Part shown: in pieces, positions 44,174-52,191 of the stretch
Position numbering within the stretch: the stretch's first letter is position 1
Layout of the letters: every line of letters begins with the position of its first letter
Assembly: GCF_003586285.1 (NCBI RefSeq)
Contig: NZ_QUBR01000001.1
Location: forward strand, 186,001-250,000
Direction: 5' to 3'
Length of the DNA stretch: 64,000 bases
DNA from: Aeromicrobium endophyticum
Lineage (GTDB): Bacteria; Actinomycetota; Actinomycetes; Propionibacteriales; Nocardioidaceae
The notes under the pieces: generated by a model
What the model was told of the DNA's origin: nothing
The model's database searches: none
The model's input: the letters and a program-made list of their open reading frames with translations, nothing else
Program-made: the position numbers and the translations under genes

Positions 44174-46399
<2,226 letters not shown>

Positions 46400-46442
46400 G
46401 GGTGCGGCAGCTCCTACGTGTGGATGCCCGACTGATCCCATC

Positions 46443-46491
46443 GGGACGGGCGTCCCGTCGGGACGGGTGAGAAATCTTTTGACATCAAGAT
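46443..46491. promoter_or_regulatory. Palindromes in the icd/catalase divergent promoter region
   Basis: GGGACG-GG-CGTCCC (46443-46456) and the overlapping CGTCCCGTCGGGACG (46451-46465) could form alternative hairpins in the icd leader. Next to them lies the only AT-rich patch here, ATCTTTTGACATCAAGAT (46474-46491), an imperfect palindrome with a TTGACA inside. I read it as a regulator site serving icd, the catalase, or both. Confidence 0.45.
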
Positions 46492-46616
46492 AACCCACCC
46501 CTCGGGGTCGGACGCGGCCCGTCGTCGAGGTTTCCGGAGGGAGGAGGGGTGAGGTGCACGTCACTGGGTACGGCGACGTCCCACTCTCCCCGCGACGCCT
46601 TCTCGAAGGAGCCTCC

Positions 46617-48212
46617 ATGGCCAGCACCGTGCCCCAACCGTCCGACGAGACCTCGGTCGCGACCTCACCGACGCCCGAGGCACAGGAGGGCTCGCACACC
46701 ATGACGGGCGCCCCCGCGCCATCCGACCGCAACTCGCTGACGCTTGGGGCGGACGGCCCGATCCTGCTGCACGACGTCCACATGGTCGAGCAGATGGCGC
46801 ACTTCAACCGCGAGCGGGTGCCCGAGCGCAACGTCCACGCCAAGGGGTCAGGCGCCTTCGGGCGCTTCGAGACCACCGAGGACGTCTCGCAGTACACCAA
46901 GGCCGCGCTGTTCCAGCCCGGAGTCACGACCGACATGCTCGCCCGTTTCTCGACCGTCGCCGGCGAGCTCGGCAGCCCCGACACGTGGCGCGACCCCCGC
47001 GGCTTCTCGCTGAAGTTCTACACGACCGAGGGCAACTACGACCTCGTCGGCAACAACACCCCCGTCTTCTTCATCCGCGACACGATGAAGTTCCCGCACT
47101 TCATCCGCTCCCAGAAGCGCCGCGGCGGCACGGGGCTGCGCGACAACAACATGCAGTGGGACTTCTGGAGCCTCAACCCCGAGTCGGCCCACCAGGTCAC
47201 GTACCTGATGGGCGATCGCGGCATCCCGAAGACGTACCGGCACATGAACGGCTACGGCTCGCACACCTTCATGTGGATCAACGCCGAGGGCACGCGGTCG
47301 TGGGTCAAGTACCACTTTCACTCCGACCAGGGTGTGGAGGGACTGAGCGGCGCGGATGCCGAGCGCATCGCCGGCCAGGACGCGGACTTCCACCGACGCG
47401 ACCTCATGGAGTCGATCGACCGCGGCGACTTCCCGTCGTGGACCTTGTCGGTCCAGGTCATGCCGTACGAGGACGCCACGACCTACCGCATCAATCCCTT
47501 CGACCTGACCAAGACGTGGTCGCACGCCGACTACCCGCTCATCAAGGTCGGGACGATGACGCTCGACCGGAACCCCGACAACTTCTTCGCCCAGATCGAG
47601 CAGGCGGCCTTCGAGCCGTCCTCCGTGGTGCCCGGCATCGGCTTCTCCCCCGACAAGATGCTGCTCGGGCGGGTGCTGTCGTACGCCGACGCGCACCGCT
47701 ACCGGATCGGGCCGAACTACCACCAGCTTCCCGTCAACCGGCACCGCGTCGAGGGCGCCAACACGTATACGTTCGATGGTCCGATGGCGTACGACCACAC
47801 GGGCGACGCCCCCGTGTACGCGCCCAACTCGATGGGGCGCGGGTACGCCGACCAGACCGGCCCCTCGGAGGAGGGGTGGGAGGCCGACGGGCAGATGGTG
47901 CGCTCGGCGTACACGCTGCGCGAGGACGACGACGACTTCTCGCAGGCCGGCGCGCTGGTTCGCGAGGTCTGGGACGACCAGCAGCGCGACGACTTCGTCG
48001 CGACCGTCACGGGGCACCTGCTGGGCGGCGTCGAGGGAGAGGTGCTCGAGCGGGCGTTCGACTACTGGAAGCACGTCGACGCGGAGACGGGGGGCCGCAT
48101 CGAGGAGGCCACGCGGGCCGGCGCCGGGGCCCCCAACCCCGGCGGGGACGACGATGCCGCCAAGGAGGCTGCATCCGATCCCGTGGTGGAGGACTCCACG
48201 CACGCGGGCTGA
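46617..48212 (+). CDS. Catalase (haem)
   Basis: A 531-residue monofunctional haem catalase that dismutates hydrogen peroxide. The distal His lies in [16 protein letters not shown] (His74), the distal Asn in [13 protein letters not shown] (about 148), and the proximal haem Tyr in [20 protein letters not shown] ends 5 bases before ATG 46617, which I prefer to the GTG at 46554. A Gly/Ala/Asp-rich tail of about 40 residues follows the core. It precedes the MNIO gene set on the same strand. Confidence 0.94.
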
Positions 48213-48221
48213 CCGCCGCGC

Positions 48222-48251
48222 GGGTCCCCCGACGACGGGGATCGACGACCC
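48222..48251 (+). terminator. Possible catalase terminator
   Basis: GGGTC (48222-48226) pairs with GACCC (48247-48251) around an inner CCCC/GGGG stem. The structure starts 9 bases after the catalase stop. Weak, with an interrupted stem. Confidence 0.35.
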
Positions 48252-48377
48252 GGGCACCGCTACTGGCTCGTAGAGCGAGGCACCTGCTTCCACGCCGGGC
48301 GTGCGTGTGGGACGATCTGTGTCACACGTCACGTCAACGGCGACGGACTCCGGTTCATCTCGATCCTGGAGGTTCTC

Positions 48378-48662
48378 ATGGTCACAGCAGCTGTCCTCAC
48401 CGGCGTCGCACTCGCCCTCGCGGGCTTGGCGTGGTGGGCCTTCTTCACCCCTGACCAGTCCGGTCGGCCGGGACGGACCGGCCGTCGCGCCGGCCGCTAC
48501 GGCGCCATGGGCGGGGGCGGCACCTACTTCGGCTCCAGCGGCGGTGGCAGCGGGACCGGCGGCACCCACCACTCCTGCGGAGGCGGCCACTCCTGTGGTG
48601 GCGGCACCAGCTGCGGCGGAGGTGGAGGCTGCGGCGGCGGAGGATGTGGCGGCGGCAGCTGA
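48378..48662 (+). CDS. Small membrane-anchored peptide with Gly/Cys-repeat tail (possible RiPP precursor)
   Basis: A 94-residue protein of three parts: one hydrophobic segment (residues 3-23), a basic linker (RPGRTGRRAGRYG) and a Gly-rich tail. The tail has five cysteines at 67, 73, 79, 85 and 90, that is, spacings of 6, 6, 6 and 5, each set in glycines with Ser or His nearby (HHSCGGG, HSCGGG, TSCGGG). TGGAGG lies 6 bases before ATG 48378. The stop overlaps the start of the DUF692/MNIO gene (TGATG). MNIO enzymes modify cysteines of ribosomal peptides in the studied cases, so this is the natural candidate substrate; a plain Gly-rich membrane protein is the alternative. Confidence 0.75.
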   Translation: MVTAAVLTGVALALAGLAWWAFFTPDQSGRPGRTGRRAGRYGAMGGGGTYFGSSGGGSGTGGTHHSCGGGHSCGGGTSCGGGGGCGGGGCGGGS

Positions 48663-49540
48663 TGCCGCTCTCCCCCGTCGCCGGGCTGGGCGTCGGTGCC
48701 GGCTGGCGGCCGTCGGTCGCCGACGACCTCCTCGACCTGGCGCGCGAGGGGATGACGTTCTCCGAGGTCGTCGCCGAGAACGTCCGACCCGGTGATCTGC
48801 CACCCCTGCTCGTCGAGGCGCTGCGTGCAGGGCTCACGGTCGTGCCGCACGGCGTGACGCTGGGCCTGGCCGGCGGAACGCCTCCGGACCCTGCCCGCCT
48901 CCACCACCTCGCCGCGCTCGCCGCCGCCACGGGCTCACCGCTCGTGAGCGAGCACGTCGCGTTCGTCCGTGCCGGGCCCGCCACGGACGGCACCGACGAG
49001 CTGCACGCCGACGTGCTCGAGGCCGGTCATCTGGTTCCGGCGGCCCGCACGTCCGACGCGCTGGCCGTGCTGGTCGACAACGTGCGGCTCGCCCAGCGAG
49101 CCCTGCCGGTGCCACTCGCGCTCGAGAACATCGCCGCGACGCTCTCGTGGCCCGAGACATCGATGGACGAAGCCGATTTCCTGACCGCCCTGACCGAGGC
49201 GACGGGGTGCCTGTTCCTGCTCGACGTCGCCAACCTGCACGCGACGTGCTCGGCGCTCGGGGGCGATCCCCGCGACCTGCTCGACCGCATGCCGCTCGAC
49301 CACGTCGCCTACGTGCACGTCGCCGGCGGGTTCACCGACCCCCAAGGGGTCTACTGGGACACCCACGCGCACGACATGACCGACGACGTCCTGCACCTGC
49401 TGACCTACGTGGTCGGGCTCCTCGGCCCGGCCGGTCCGCCGGTGCTGCTCGAGCGCGACACCGACGTCGACGGGGCGGTCGTCCGGGCCGAGCTCCGGCG
49501 CGTCCGGCACGCCGTCGCCGGTGCGGCGGTCCGGGCATGA
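48662..49540 (+). CDS. DUF692 / MNIO-family enzyme (multinuclear non-haem iron oxidase)
   Basis: A 292-residue TIM-barrel protein of the MbnB/TglH (UPF0276, DUF692) family. Conserved metal-site motifs are all present: VVAEN (Glu39), PHGVTLGLAGG (His63), SEHVAF (His98), LALENI (Glu145), LLDVANLHA (Asp178, Asn181, His183), VHVAGGF (His209), WDTHAHD (Asp223, His225, His227) and LLERDTD (Glu254). Studied relatives use two or three irons to rearrange or cleave peptidyl cysteines (methanobactin, thiaglutamate). It overlaps the Cys-rich peptide gene by 1 base and the downstream partner by 4, so the three act together. The product is unknown. Confidence 0.9.
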   Translation: MPLSPVAGLGVGAGWRPSVADDLLDLAREGMTFSEVVAENVRPGDLPPLLVEALRAGLTVVPHGVTLGLAGGTPPDPARLHHLAALAAATGSPLVSEHVAFVRAGPATDGTDELHADVLEAGHLVPAARTSDALAVLVDNVRLAQRALPVPLALENIAATLSWPETSMDEADFLTALTEATGCLFLLDVANLHATCSALGGDPRDLLDRMPLDHVAYVHVAGGFTDPQGVYWDTHAHDMTDDVLHLLTYVVGLLGPAGPPVLLERDTDVDGAVVRAELRRVRHAVAGAAVRA

Positions 49541-49989
49541 GCCGCCGCGAGCTGCAGCAGCGGCAGGAGCTCGTGCTCGGGGCGCTGCTGCGCGGCGAGG
49601 TGCCGGACGGCTTCGACCCACGGTCGGCCGGGCTCACCGTGCGGGTGCTGCGCGTCAAGCGCCGCAGCGACGCTCTCGAGGCGGTGCCGGCACTCGTCGA
49701 GGTCGAGCACCTGGCCGAGCGCTTCGACCGCTGGGCCACCGCCCACCCGCGCACGGGGTGCGCCCACGACGACGTCGTCGACTTCGTGACCGACGACGAC
49801 GGGGTGCTGCCCGAGCCGTTCGCGTCGATCCGGTCGGTCGAGCGGGTGTACCGCCGCCGGGCACGCTGGGGGCGCGACCGGCGGGCGGGAGCGCGTCCCT
49901 GGGTGCTGGCCACCGGCCCCCGCGTCTGGCATCTGGGCCCGCGCGTCGCCCCGACGAGTCCTCCGGGCACGTCTGCGCTAGTTTCGTAA
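49537..49989 (+). CDS. SCO6045-like small protein, probable MNIO partner
   Basis: A 150-residue basic protein. Its N-terminal [16 protein letters not shown] and [12 protein letters not shown] pattern (RQxxLVxAL...G.xPxGFD) matches a domain I associate with actinobacterial DUF692 neighbours (SCO6045-like); I could not verify this by search. A Val/Leu/Arg-rich region and a second basic helix ([15 protein letters not shown]) follow. MNIO enzymes commonly need a partner that binds the leader peptide (MbnC, TglI), and this gene holds that position with a 4-base overlap. The partner role is inferred. Confidence 0.7.
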
Positions 49990-50035
49990 GTGTTGCCCGT
50001 CACTTTCTGCAGCGTCGCCGAAGGAGAACACACTC

Positions 50036-51025
50036 GTGAGCACATCCCCCGTCAAGGTCGCCGTCACCGGTGCCGCCGGTCAGATCGGCTACAGCCTGCT
50101 CTTCCGCCTCGCCAGCGGCGCCCTGCTCGGCCCCGACACGCCCGTCCAGCTGCGCCTGCTCGAGATCACGCCGGCGCTCAAGGCCCTCGAGGGTGTCGTG
50201 ATGGAGCTCGACGACTGCGCGTTCCCGACGCTCGACTCGGTCGAGATCGGCGACGACCCGAACCACATCTTCGACGGCGTCAACCTGGCCCTGCTCGTCG
50301 GCGCGCGCCCGCGCACCAAGGGGATGGAGCGCGGTGACCTGCTCTCGGCCAACGGCGCGATCTTCACCGGCCAGGGCAAGGCCCTCAACGACCACGCCGC
50401 CGACGACGTCCGCATCGGCGTGACCGGCAACCCGGCCAACACCAACGCGCTCATCGCGATGAGCAACGCACCCGACATCCCGCGCGAGCGCTTCTCGGCG
50501 CTGACCCGGCTCGACCACAACCGGGCCATGTCGCAGCTGGCGACCAAGACCGGCTCGAAGGTCACCGACATCAAGAAGCTGACGATCTGGGGCAACCACT
50601 CGGCCACCCAGTACCCCGACATCTTCCACGCCGAGATCGGTGGCCAGAACGCGGCCGAGGTCGTCGGCGACCAGGGCTGGATCGCCGACACGTTCATCCC
50701 AACGGTCGCGCAGCGCGGCGCCGCCATCATTGAGGCGCGCGGCGCGTCGTCGGCCGCGTCCGCGGCCTCGGCGACGATCGACGCAGCGCGCACCTGGCTC
50801 ACGGGCACGCCCGAGGGCGACTGGGCCTCGATGGCGGTCTGCTCCGACGGCTCGTACGACATCCCCGAGGGACTGATCTACTCGTTCCCCGTCACGACGT
50901 CGAACGGCGAGTGGCAGATCGTGCAGGGCCTCGAGATCGACGAGTTCTCCCGCGGCAAGATGGACGCCACCGCGCAGGAGCTCATCGAGGAGCGCGACGC
51001 CGTCAAGGAGCTCGGCCTCATCTGA
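50036..51025 (+). CDS. mdh: Malate dehydrogenase
   Basis: A 329-residue NAD-dependent malate dehydrogenase of the TCA cycle. The nucleotide-binding [12 protein letters not shown] (about 12-23), [15 protein letters not shown] (substrate Arg and mobile loop), TRLDHNRA and the catalytic [12 protein letters not shown] (His) are seen. GTG 50036 has AAGGAGAA at good spacing. A TAGTTT -10-like box lies inside the end of the upstream gene, so it probably has its own promoter. Confidence 0.96.
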
Positions 51026-51053
51026 GCCTCCCCGCCCCGCGGGCCGGTCCGGG

Positions 51054-51329
51054 TCAGCCGGGCTGGTTGGGGATCAGGATCGGCAGCACGATCAGCGCGG
51101 TGCCCAGCAGCGACATCCACACGACGTCGAAGACCTTGCCGCGCACGCGCAGCATCCCGGTGTGGTCGATCGGGACCACCACGCGGGCGAGTGCCCCGGC
51201 GACGAAGGCCATGCCGATGGCACCGATGCCCAGACGCCACTGGCCGGCTCCGACCAGCGCAAGACCGACGACGACCGCGAGCAGCTGCAGCAGGTAGAAC
51301 TGCGACCCCCGGCTGCGCGGCGCCTTCAC
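51054..51329 (-). CDS. DUF3017 small membrane protein
   Basis: A 91-residue protein with three hydrophobic segments (about 11-28, 32-50, 68-86) and a short basic N-terminus. Its size, topology and place directly after folD (10 bases) match the actinobacterial DUF3017 family. GTG 51329 start. Function unknown. Confidence 0.8.
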   Translation of the reverse strand: MKAPRSRGSQFYLLQLLAVVVGLALVGAGQWRLGIGAIGMAFVAGALARVVVPIDHTGMLRVRGKVFDVVWMSLLGTALIVLPILIPNQPG

Positions 51330-51339
51330 CGACGGTGCC

Positions 51340-52191
51340 TCACGGGTTCAGGCGCTCGGCAGTGTCGACGACATTGGCCAGCAGCAGGGCACGGGTCATG
51401 GGTCCGACGCCGCCAGGATTGGGCGAGACCCACCCGGCGACCTCGTAGGCGGCCGGATCGACGTCACCGACGATGCCGTTCTCGTCACGGCTGACACCCA
51501 CGTCGAGCAGCGCGGCCCCGGGCTTGACCATGTCGGCCGAGATGATGCCTGGGACGCCGGCCGCCGCGATCACGATGTCGGCCCGGCGCACCTCGGCGGC
51601 CAGGTCGGTGGTGCCGGTGTGGCACAGCGTCACGGTCGCGTTCTCGCTGCGCCGCGTGAGCAGCAGACCCATCGGACGTCCGACGGTGATGCCGCGGCCC
51701 ACCACGACGACGTGCTGACCGGCGATCGGGACGTCGTGGCGACGCAGGAGCTCGATGATGCCGCGGGGCGTGCACGGCAGCGGGGCCTGCTTGCCGAGCA
51801 CGAGCCACCCGAGGTTGGTGGGGTGCAGGCCGTCGGCGTCCTTGAGCGGGTCGATGCGGCCGATCGCGGCGTTCTCGTCGAGTCCCTTGGGCAGCGGGAG
51901 CTGGAGGATGTAGCCGGTGCAGGTCGGATCGGCGTTGAGCCGGTCGATCGCGGCCTCGACCTCGGCCTGGGTCGCGGTCTCGGGCAGGTCGACGCGGATC
52001 GACTCGATGCCGACCTCCGCGCAGTCGCGGTGCTTTCCGGCCACGTACCACTGGCTGCCGGGGTCGTTGCCGACGAGGATCGTGCCGAGACCCGGCACCA
52101 CGCCCTGGGCGCGCAGGGCGGTCACCCGCTCGCGGAGCTCGCTCTTGATCGCGGCAGCGGCCGCCTTGCCGTCGAGGATCTGCGCAGTCAC
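51340..52191 (-). CDS. folD: Methylenetetrahydrofolate dehydrogenase/cyclohydrolase
   Basis: A 283-residue FolD, bifunctional 5,10-methylene-THF dehydrogenase and methenyl-THF cyclohydrolase. The [14 protein letters not shown] region carries the catalytic Lys, [10 protein letters not shown] and [17 protein letters not shown] (NADP site) are typical. GTG 52191. Upstream, divergent TetR. It supplies the formyl-THF used by PurN and PurH nearby and by PurU's opposing reaction. Confidence 0.95.

Follow-up and report, generated by a model that had tools for sequence, protein, structure and literature searches.

MNIOs hold a mixed-valent diiron centre that binds the cysteine thiolate of the substrate, usually with the help of a partner protein (PMC13419390). 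They install thiooxazoles in copper-binding peptides, and peptides carrying thiooxazoles bind copper (PMC13097082). In the literature covered, MNIO products are mostly secreted, periplasmic or lipid-anchored. A survey by Antoine et al. (2025, PMC12452194) described MNIO systems with TIGR04222 membrane proteins, which occur mostly in Actinomycetota, carry cysteine-rich Gly/Ser tails and are accompanied by PME-type 2 partners. In our study we analyzed a locus of Aeromicrobium endophyticum that resembles these systems in several respects but encodes a much shorter peptide.

The window, by which we mean the whole analyzed stretch of 64,000 nucleotides, contains what is probably a compact three-gene MNIO system with the peptide as probable substrate, a little-described relative of the known metal-binding peptide systems. 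On the forward strand, a gene for a probable precursor peptide of 94 aa (48378..48662) is followed by the gene of an MNIO/DUF692 enzyme of 292 aa (48662..49540) and by that of a partner protein of 150 aa (49537..49989). The peptide reading frame is the one given in a preliminary description of this DNA, which had also reported that the three frames are joined by overlaps of one and four bases. All frames were recovered at these positions; the peptide/MNIO junction reads TGATG with a 1-base overlap at 48662, and the MNIO/partner junction reads ATGA with a 4-base overlap at 49537-49540. In one annotated locus of the short-peptide type both the peptide and the partner are labelled 'hypothetical protein'. 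Our best explanation, to which we give an even chance, is a compact MNIO-dependent modified-peptide system in which the peptide tail would lie in the cytosol and serve as a membrane-tethered soft-metal trap.

The identity of the enzyme follows from its family match, its conserved site residues and its position in the tree. It matches PF05114 over residues 10-284 with E = 4e-62 (210 bits against a curated cut-off of 25), and the BufB model gave a score of 150 bits against a cut-off of 310 bits. The enzyme was aligned with 3BWW, which is closely related to HvfB and has its D and H numbered one lower than HvfB. Through this alignment, residues N191, D233 and H235 were found to be the counterparts of HvfB N175, D242 and H244, whose mutation abolished activity (PMC13419390). 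All three are invariant across 24 aligned MNIOs. The same applies to E39, H63, H98, E155, D188, H219 and E264, which align with identical residues in 3BWW. Some of these latter positions presumably bind iron. The earlier assignment as a DUF692/MNIO enzyme with the expected metal-site residues was thus corroborated by both the profile match and the conserved site.

The tree was calculated by a quick method with SH-aLRT support only, and same-genome copies were omitted. In this tree the MNIOs of the short-peptide loci form one clade (38 rows, 33 of them with a peptide; SH-aLRT 98), and the sister group comprises 28 of the 29 TIGR04222 MNIO rows (SH-aLRT 81), counting L045, which was labelled TIGR04222-type by similarity with the TIGR04222 gene itself unseen. 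The MNIO of the window lies outside the TIGR04222-associated clade and within its sister. The MNIO of L053 is a distant exception in the tree and yet is accompanied by the same kind of peptide and partner. The rows L018 and L041 are identical and L043, L044 and L054 nearly so; the record of L043 is titled Kitasatospora arboriphila, while its MNIO is almost identical to that of Williamsia muralis, and the record is perhaps mislabelled or contaminated.

Profile searches detected MNIO, partner and peptide (E at most 1e-14 for the peptide) in the same six of 49 Aeromicrobium genomes. The chance of hitting the same six of 49 is 7e-8 per gene pair, a value that is descriptive only, since the genes lie side by side in genomes that are themselves related. 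Weak peptide matches in four further Aeromicrobium genomes (G013, G017, G034 and G045; E 5e-4 to 7e-3) were counted as chance. In a sample of the family, own genus included, MNIO relatives were present in 20 of 294 genomes, and a scan of public genomes yielded 33 named MNIO relatives, among which those of Aeromicrobium are closest. A peptide of the same design is encoded beside the MNIO in 28 of these 33 relatives and the partner in 29. Aeromicrobium has the gene order peptide-MNIO-partner. In Nocardioides, Williamsia, Nakamurella, Metallococcus and Flexivirga the arrangement is MNIO-partner-peptide(s), and most Tsukamurella loci show MNIO-peptide-partner. Since the linkage has been kept despite three gene orders, the three genes appear to act together. 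The co-occurrence of MNIO homologues with peptide and partner, which the preliminary description had proposed as a check, therefore holds within the genus and across three arrangements, and together with the kept linkage it supports the proposal of a three-gene system with the peptide as probable substrate. We consider it very likely that the peptide is indeed modified by the MNIO.

Several observations were nevertheless counted against our best explanation. Five of the 38 MNIO clade rows, all from the Nocardioides part of the tree, lacked both peptide and partner within the stretch covered, and the restriction to six of 49 Aeromicrobium genomes means that the role of the operon is dispensable. 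The MNIO-only rows belong to a Nocardioides subclade (L014, L018/L041, L019 and L032); L015 and L046 of the same subclade have kept a small helix-plus-Cys peptide while the partner is absent, which also counts against our explanation. Rows without an adjacent peptide and peptide-bearing loci without a partner would fit a peptide that is not the substrate but anchors the enzyme complex in the membrane or regulates it, with the MNIO modifying something else. We regard this as quite unlikely, as the cysteine tails persist while helix and linker drift, which outside Aeromicrobium is partly a selection effect. Moreover, 10 of the 33 loci carry two tandem peptides that differ in sequence, as would be the case if one enzyme had several substrates.

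The peptide of the window comprises one N-terminal hydrophobic helix (about residues 3-23), an Arg-rich juxtamembrane stretch (30-40), the residues YF, a Gly-rich linker, His-His and a tail with five cysteines. Translation confirmed the cysteines at 67, 73, 79, 85 and 90 (codons 48576-48647) that had been noted before; their spacings are 6, 6, 6 and 5. A common plan was found in an alignment of 38 peptides of 67-121 aa, in which a short helix at the N-terminus is followed by an Arg-rich stretch, then by a linker rich in Gly that usually contains an aromatic residue, often by His, and finally by a Gly/Ser/Cys tail. This alignment omits near copies (L009, L012 and L054) and two peptides found later (L015 and L091), and for L028, L031, L042, L047 and L050 the start codon was set manually. 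His is present in the tail of 32 of the 38 peptides. The number of tail cysteines ranges from 3 to 8, and 113 of 133 Cys-Cys intervals span 4-7 residues. The cysteines, described earlier as 'periodic', are thus plentiful and loosely spaced but do not follow a strict repeat.

In Aeromicrobium the gene before the MNIO was chosen by position alone, and all six peptides obtained in this way have a Cys tail with 3-5 cysteines. Homologues near an MNIO lacking conserved cysteines, which the preliminary description had named as evidence against its proposal, were therefore not encountered in this genus. The corresponding result outside Aeromicrobium carries less weight: Cys tails are present there as well, but the peptides were selected by a script for a hydrophobic stretch plus a stretch rich in Gly/Ser that contains no fewer than 2-3 Cys, so that the presence of cysteines in every peptide is partly given by construction. 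Besides, the three forward frames just 3' of the MNIO were read without a Cys filter in L014, L015, L018, L019, L032 and L041, which revealed one two-Cys peptide, at L015. Cys-rich proteins were also seen next to MNIOs of more distant loci. A Cys-rich frame of 174 aa from a distant member of the phylum (L084:28-552) lies 5' of an MNIO with a DUF2063-matching partner. Outside Actinomycetota, in a member of the Polyangiaceae (Myxococcota), a large, apparently multi-pass protein with a Cys tail (L051:2997-3998) is encoded directly 5' of the MNIO.

The orientation of the peptide in the membrane is of special interest, as the preliminary description had placed its cysteines 'at the cell surface'. 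None of the 38 peptides has K or R before the helix, whereas 3-11 such residues (mean 5.9) follow it; in L050 an upstream start would place two Arg before the helix. As a control we used five signal-peptide precursors encoded 5' of bufferin-type MNIOs, a sixth locus (L098) having yielded none. Four of the five have K/R before the hydrophobic stretch, L099 being the exception. Based on the charge bias and the positive-inside rule, the peptides are predicted to adopt an N-out/C-in orientation with the Cys tail in the cytosol, where MNIO and partner are located, and we judge a cytosolic tail to be likely. A Sec signal peptide was judged absent in 38 of 38 peptides by charge only. The placement at the cell surface is hence contradicted by the predicted topology.

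The same modified peptide could also be inserted N-in and C-out, in which case its tail would act as a metal trap in the envelope like bufferins or lipid-anchored captophorins. Published precedents point in this direction, as MNIO products of the bufferin type and those with a lipid anchor undergo export (PMC12452194, PMC12636315) and the authors of the survey put the TIGR04222 tails in the periplasm (PMC12452194), which we counted against the cytosolic reading. An outside tail nevertheless seems unlikely to us, because the complete lack of K/R before the helix is unlike the n-region of a signal peptide. For the TIGR04222 proteins themselves, of which 11 were usable after 14 loci and L094 had been tried, the charges favour an N-out start and three helices ending inside; in L123 and L127 a fourth hydrophobic stretch would put the tail outside.

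For the partner protein of 150 residues, no credible Pfam or NCBIfam family was found in a profile scan. When 28 partners were scanned at E up to 1, DUF2063 did not appear and weak matches to four other families were obtained (best E 0.066), and hhalign of the partner against an alignment of five DUF2063-type proteins gave a probability of 0.2 percent. An assignment as DUF2063 (PME-type 1) is therefore unsupported by profile match or hhalign probability. An AlphaFold model of the partner (mean pLDDT 91) is rich in helices with a short C-terminal beta part, and a Foldseek search of the PDB with this model, in which similarity to NGO1945 (3dee) or TglI was of interest, gave nothing better than E = 3.3. 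The lack of a fold match, like that of a profile match to DUF2063, was counted against our best explanation. A profile of the partners from short-peptide loci matches 21 of the 22 fetched TIGR04222 loci showing an MNIO. Likewise, the partner encoded beside TIGR04222 in Tsukamurella tyrosinosolvens (L092), which has 61 aa, aligns with the window-type partner. Judged by these profile matches, the partner belongs to the same family as the partners of the TIGR04222-MNIO clusters and is PME-type 2-like. Matches to MNIO and partner fall in one open frame in L049:3959-5383, in L045 and in 15 of the 21 TIGR04222 loci with both (e.g. L103, L109 and L112-L114), which suggests natural MNIO-partner fusions.

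In the Aeromicrobium loci with both sides read, the operon is located between the genes of a monomeric isocitrate dehydrogenase and a malate dehydrogenase. Before it, the window has a catalase gene, two of the other loci have a major-intrinsic-protein gene, one has an unassigned short frame and two have no gene; the identities of the catalase, both dehydrogenases and the major intrinsic protein were confirmed by Pfam. The catalase had been taken as a hint of oxidative or metal stress, and lying directly 5' in the window it would suit a redox or peroxide-handling module in which the tail thiols are functional and the MNIO modification tunes them. However, the five other Aeromicrobium loci have no catalase gene in this position. 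The catalase neighbour is incidental, the earlier hint is lost, and we hold such a module to be very improbable.

More generally, no Pfam family had more than four members among 65 neighbour frames from 16 loci, considering the best 25 of 63 families listed. These frames, picked by base composition, represent 65 of 71; omitted were three isocitrate dehydrogenase, partner or short Aeromicrobium frames as well as redundant ones elsewhere. The four-member families are a nucleoside transporter, an aminotransferase, a succinyltransferase and TetR, the first three of which reflect synteny in Tsukamurella, to which four syntenic loci of the 16 belong. Within the same best 25 families, no exporter, peptidase, immunity or metal gene recurred beside the operon across genera; the nucleoside transporter occurs in the Tsukamurella loci, and matches to an M20 peptidase and to MMPL in two each. 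As no neighbour family recurs, the trio looks self-contained. No copper gene was recognized beside the operon, which we counted against our best explanation.

The neighbourhood also bears on whether the peptide might be a RiPP precursor from which a Cys core is released for export as an antibiotic or toxin. A YxzE-like putative bacteriocin model matches 11 of the 38 peptides at E up to 1 (best 8.8e-7), and a heterocycloanthracin model shows a weak match to one (E = 1.2). These matches look like an effect of Gly/Cys composition on low-complexity models, and the hits of the peptides to YxzE, GRP and lectin were put down to composition. Together with the lack of a common exporter, peptidase or immunity gene across genera among the best 25 of 63 families, this makes an antibiotic or toxin hardly probable at all.

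Upstream of the peptide gene, the ribosome-binding site GGAGG (48368..48372, forward strand) is invariant in six aligned Aeromicrobium upstream regions. A promoter-like pattern on the same strand (48287..48317) consists of CTTCC at 48287-48291, TG at 48308-48309 and ACGATC at 48312-48317, and its columns are invariant in six of six regions. A scan for sigma-70-type promoters and a terminator scan gave no match at the locus, so that a promoter function of the conserved pattern would be our inference from its conservation. Between these features lies the leader element ACGTCAACGGCGACGGACTCC (48331..48351, forward strand), a possible operator with a CGTC-N6-GACG dyad. It is recognizable in all six operon-bearing Aeromicrobium loci, with loop changes in L024 and L025. 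In its own genome it has one exact copy and matches two further places at 2 and 3 mismatches, while the reversed control pattern gave none. RNA folds of the leader were no better than those of shuffled sequences in the four of six leaders folded, and Rfam showed nothing at gathering score in 46000-51500. Because RNA folding gives a leader structure no support, a protein-binding site is the likelier reading of ACGTCAACGGCGACGGACTCC.

The conserved trio, the enzyme and partner families, the Cys tail, the single helix and the charge bias are read directly from the sequences; for orientation, substrate status, chemistry, metal and physiological role we infer the following. The peptide would insert with its N-terminus out and leave the Gly/Ser/His/Cys tail in the cytosol, where the partner would present it to the diiron MNIO. 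The enzyme would then bind a Cys thiolate, activate O2 and oxidise the Cys residues, most likely by a four-electron route leading to 5-thiooxazole-like ligands. The mature peptide would stay in the membrane as a flexible multidentate soft-metal trap or relay at the inner face, most likely for Cu(I). That the product on the tail cysteines is a thiooxazole has in our view slightly less than an even chance, and copper as the metal bound is possible but somewhat less probable than that. More tentatively still, the loci may represent an unnamed MNIO clade of never-exported N-out/C-in single-helix peptides, whose thiooxazole tail would be a cytosol-facing copper buffer or relay and perhaps supply membrane cuproenzymes or exporters. 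If true, the substrate would be anchored by a helix and its modified tail would lie on the side of the enzyme, so that the range of MNIO chemistry would come to include permanent membrane proteins and the handling of metals at the inner membrane face.

Compared with bufferins, oxazolins and captophorins, which have DUF2282 or EGKCG precursors, a BufB/HvfB MNIO and a DUF2063 partner, the system shares a short operon of MNIO, partner and Cys-rich precursor as well as several cysteines as possible targets. However, the window-type peptide has no signal-peptide-like N-terminus, no DUF2282 and no EGKCG motif, and its partner has no DUF2063 match. With the lipid-anchored DybA and NedA (PMC12636315) it shares an MNIO product retained at the membrane, but these are lipoproteins matured by signal peptidase II, whereas the helix of the window-type peptide is apparently not cleaved and its tail is predicted to be cytosolic. 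The survey further lists adjamnio-V, very small proteins of unassigned structure encoded right after MNIOs (PMC12452194), and compared by description only this group could include the Tsukamurella-type peptides directly 3' of the MNIO. In the literature searched, we found no paper linking DUF692 with Aeromicrobium and, in main texts without supplementary files, no description of short peptides of this kind. The preliminary description had considered a membrane-tethered substrate unusual; this is partly superseded, since TIGR04222 membrane proteins with Cys-rich tails next to MNIOs (PMC12452194) and lipid-anchored MNIO peptides (PMC12636315) have already been published.

The closest likeness is to the TIGR04222-MNIO systems, of which we collected 30 loci as the best of 68 matching genomes among 197 searched; in eight of them the short fetched stretch lacked an MNIO, and these are outside the tree. 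TIGR04222 matches were also obtained in 13 of the 49 Aeromicrobium genomes, one above the cut-off. The Aeromicrobium proteins of L055, L064 and L065 were rejected as part of the operon, since they are about 607-610 aa long, have Cys-free Gly tails and are unrelated; two of them have a LemA gene as neighbour, confirmed by Pfam in the case of L064 only. In T. tyrosinosolvens an annotated TIGR04222 protein of 643 aa (L092:7034-8965) looks like two units, the first of which ends in an Arg-rich tail as if a Gly/Cys repeat were read in another frame.

Both kinds of system occur in Actinomycetota and combine a membrane protein lacking a Sec signal peptide with a Gly/Ser/Cys-rich C-terminal tail. Some TIGR04222 tails even resemble the window type, with an aromatic residue, Gly-Gly, His and then Cys-Gly repeats (e.g. 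L089 and L124). They differ in that the TIGR04222 domain of 229 positions is absent in the window-type peptides, TIGR04222 not being among the families listed for the 38 peptides down to E = 8.6, in that one helix replaces a multi-pass protein and in that the window-type systems show three gene orders. Moreover, T. tyrosinosolvens NCTC13231 carries one short-peptide and one TIGR04222 system. The MNIO sister clades, the shared partner family and this coexistence therefore argue for a miniature sister system and not for a broken TIGR04222 gene. With a peptide of about 90 residues and a single helix, it would be a far simpler test case for MNIO chemistry in Actinomycetota than the multi-pass TIGR04222 proteins.
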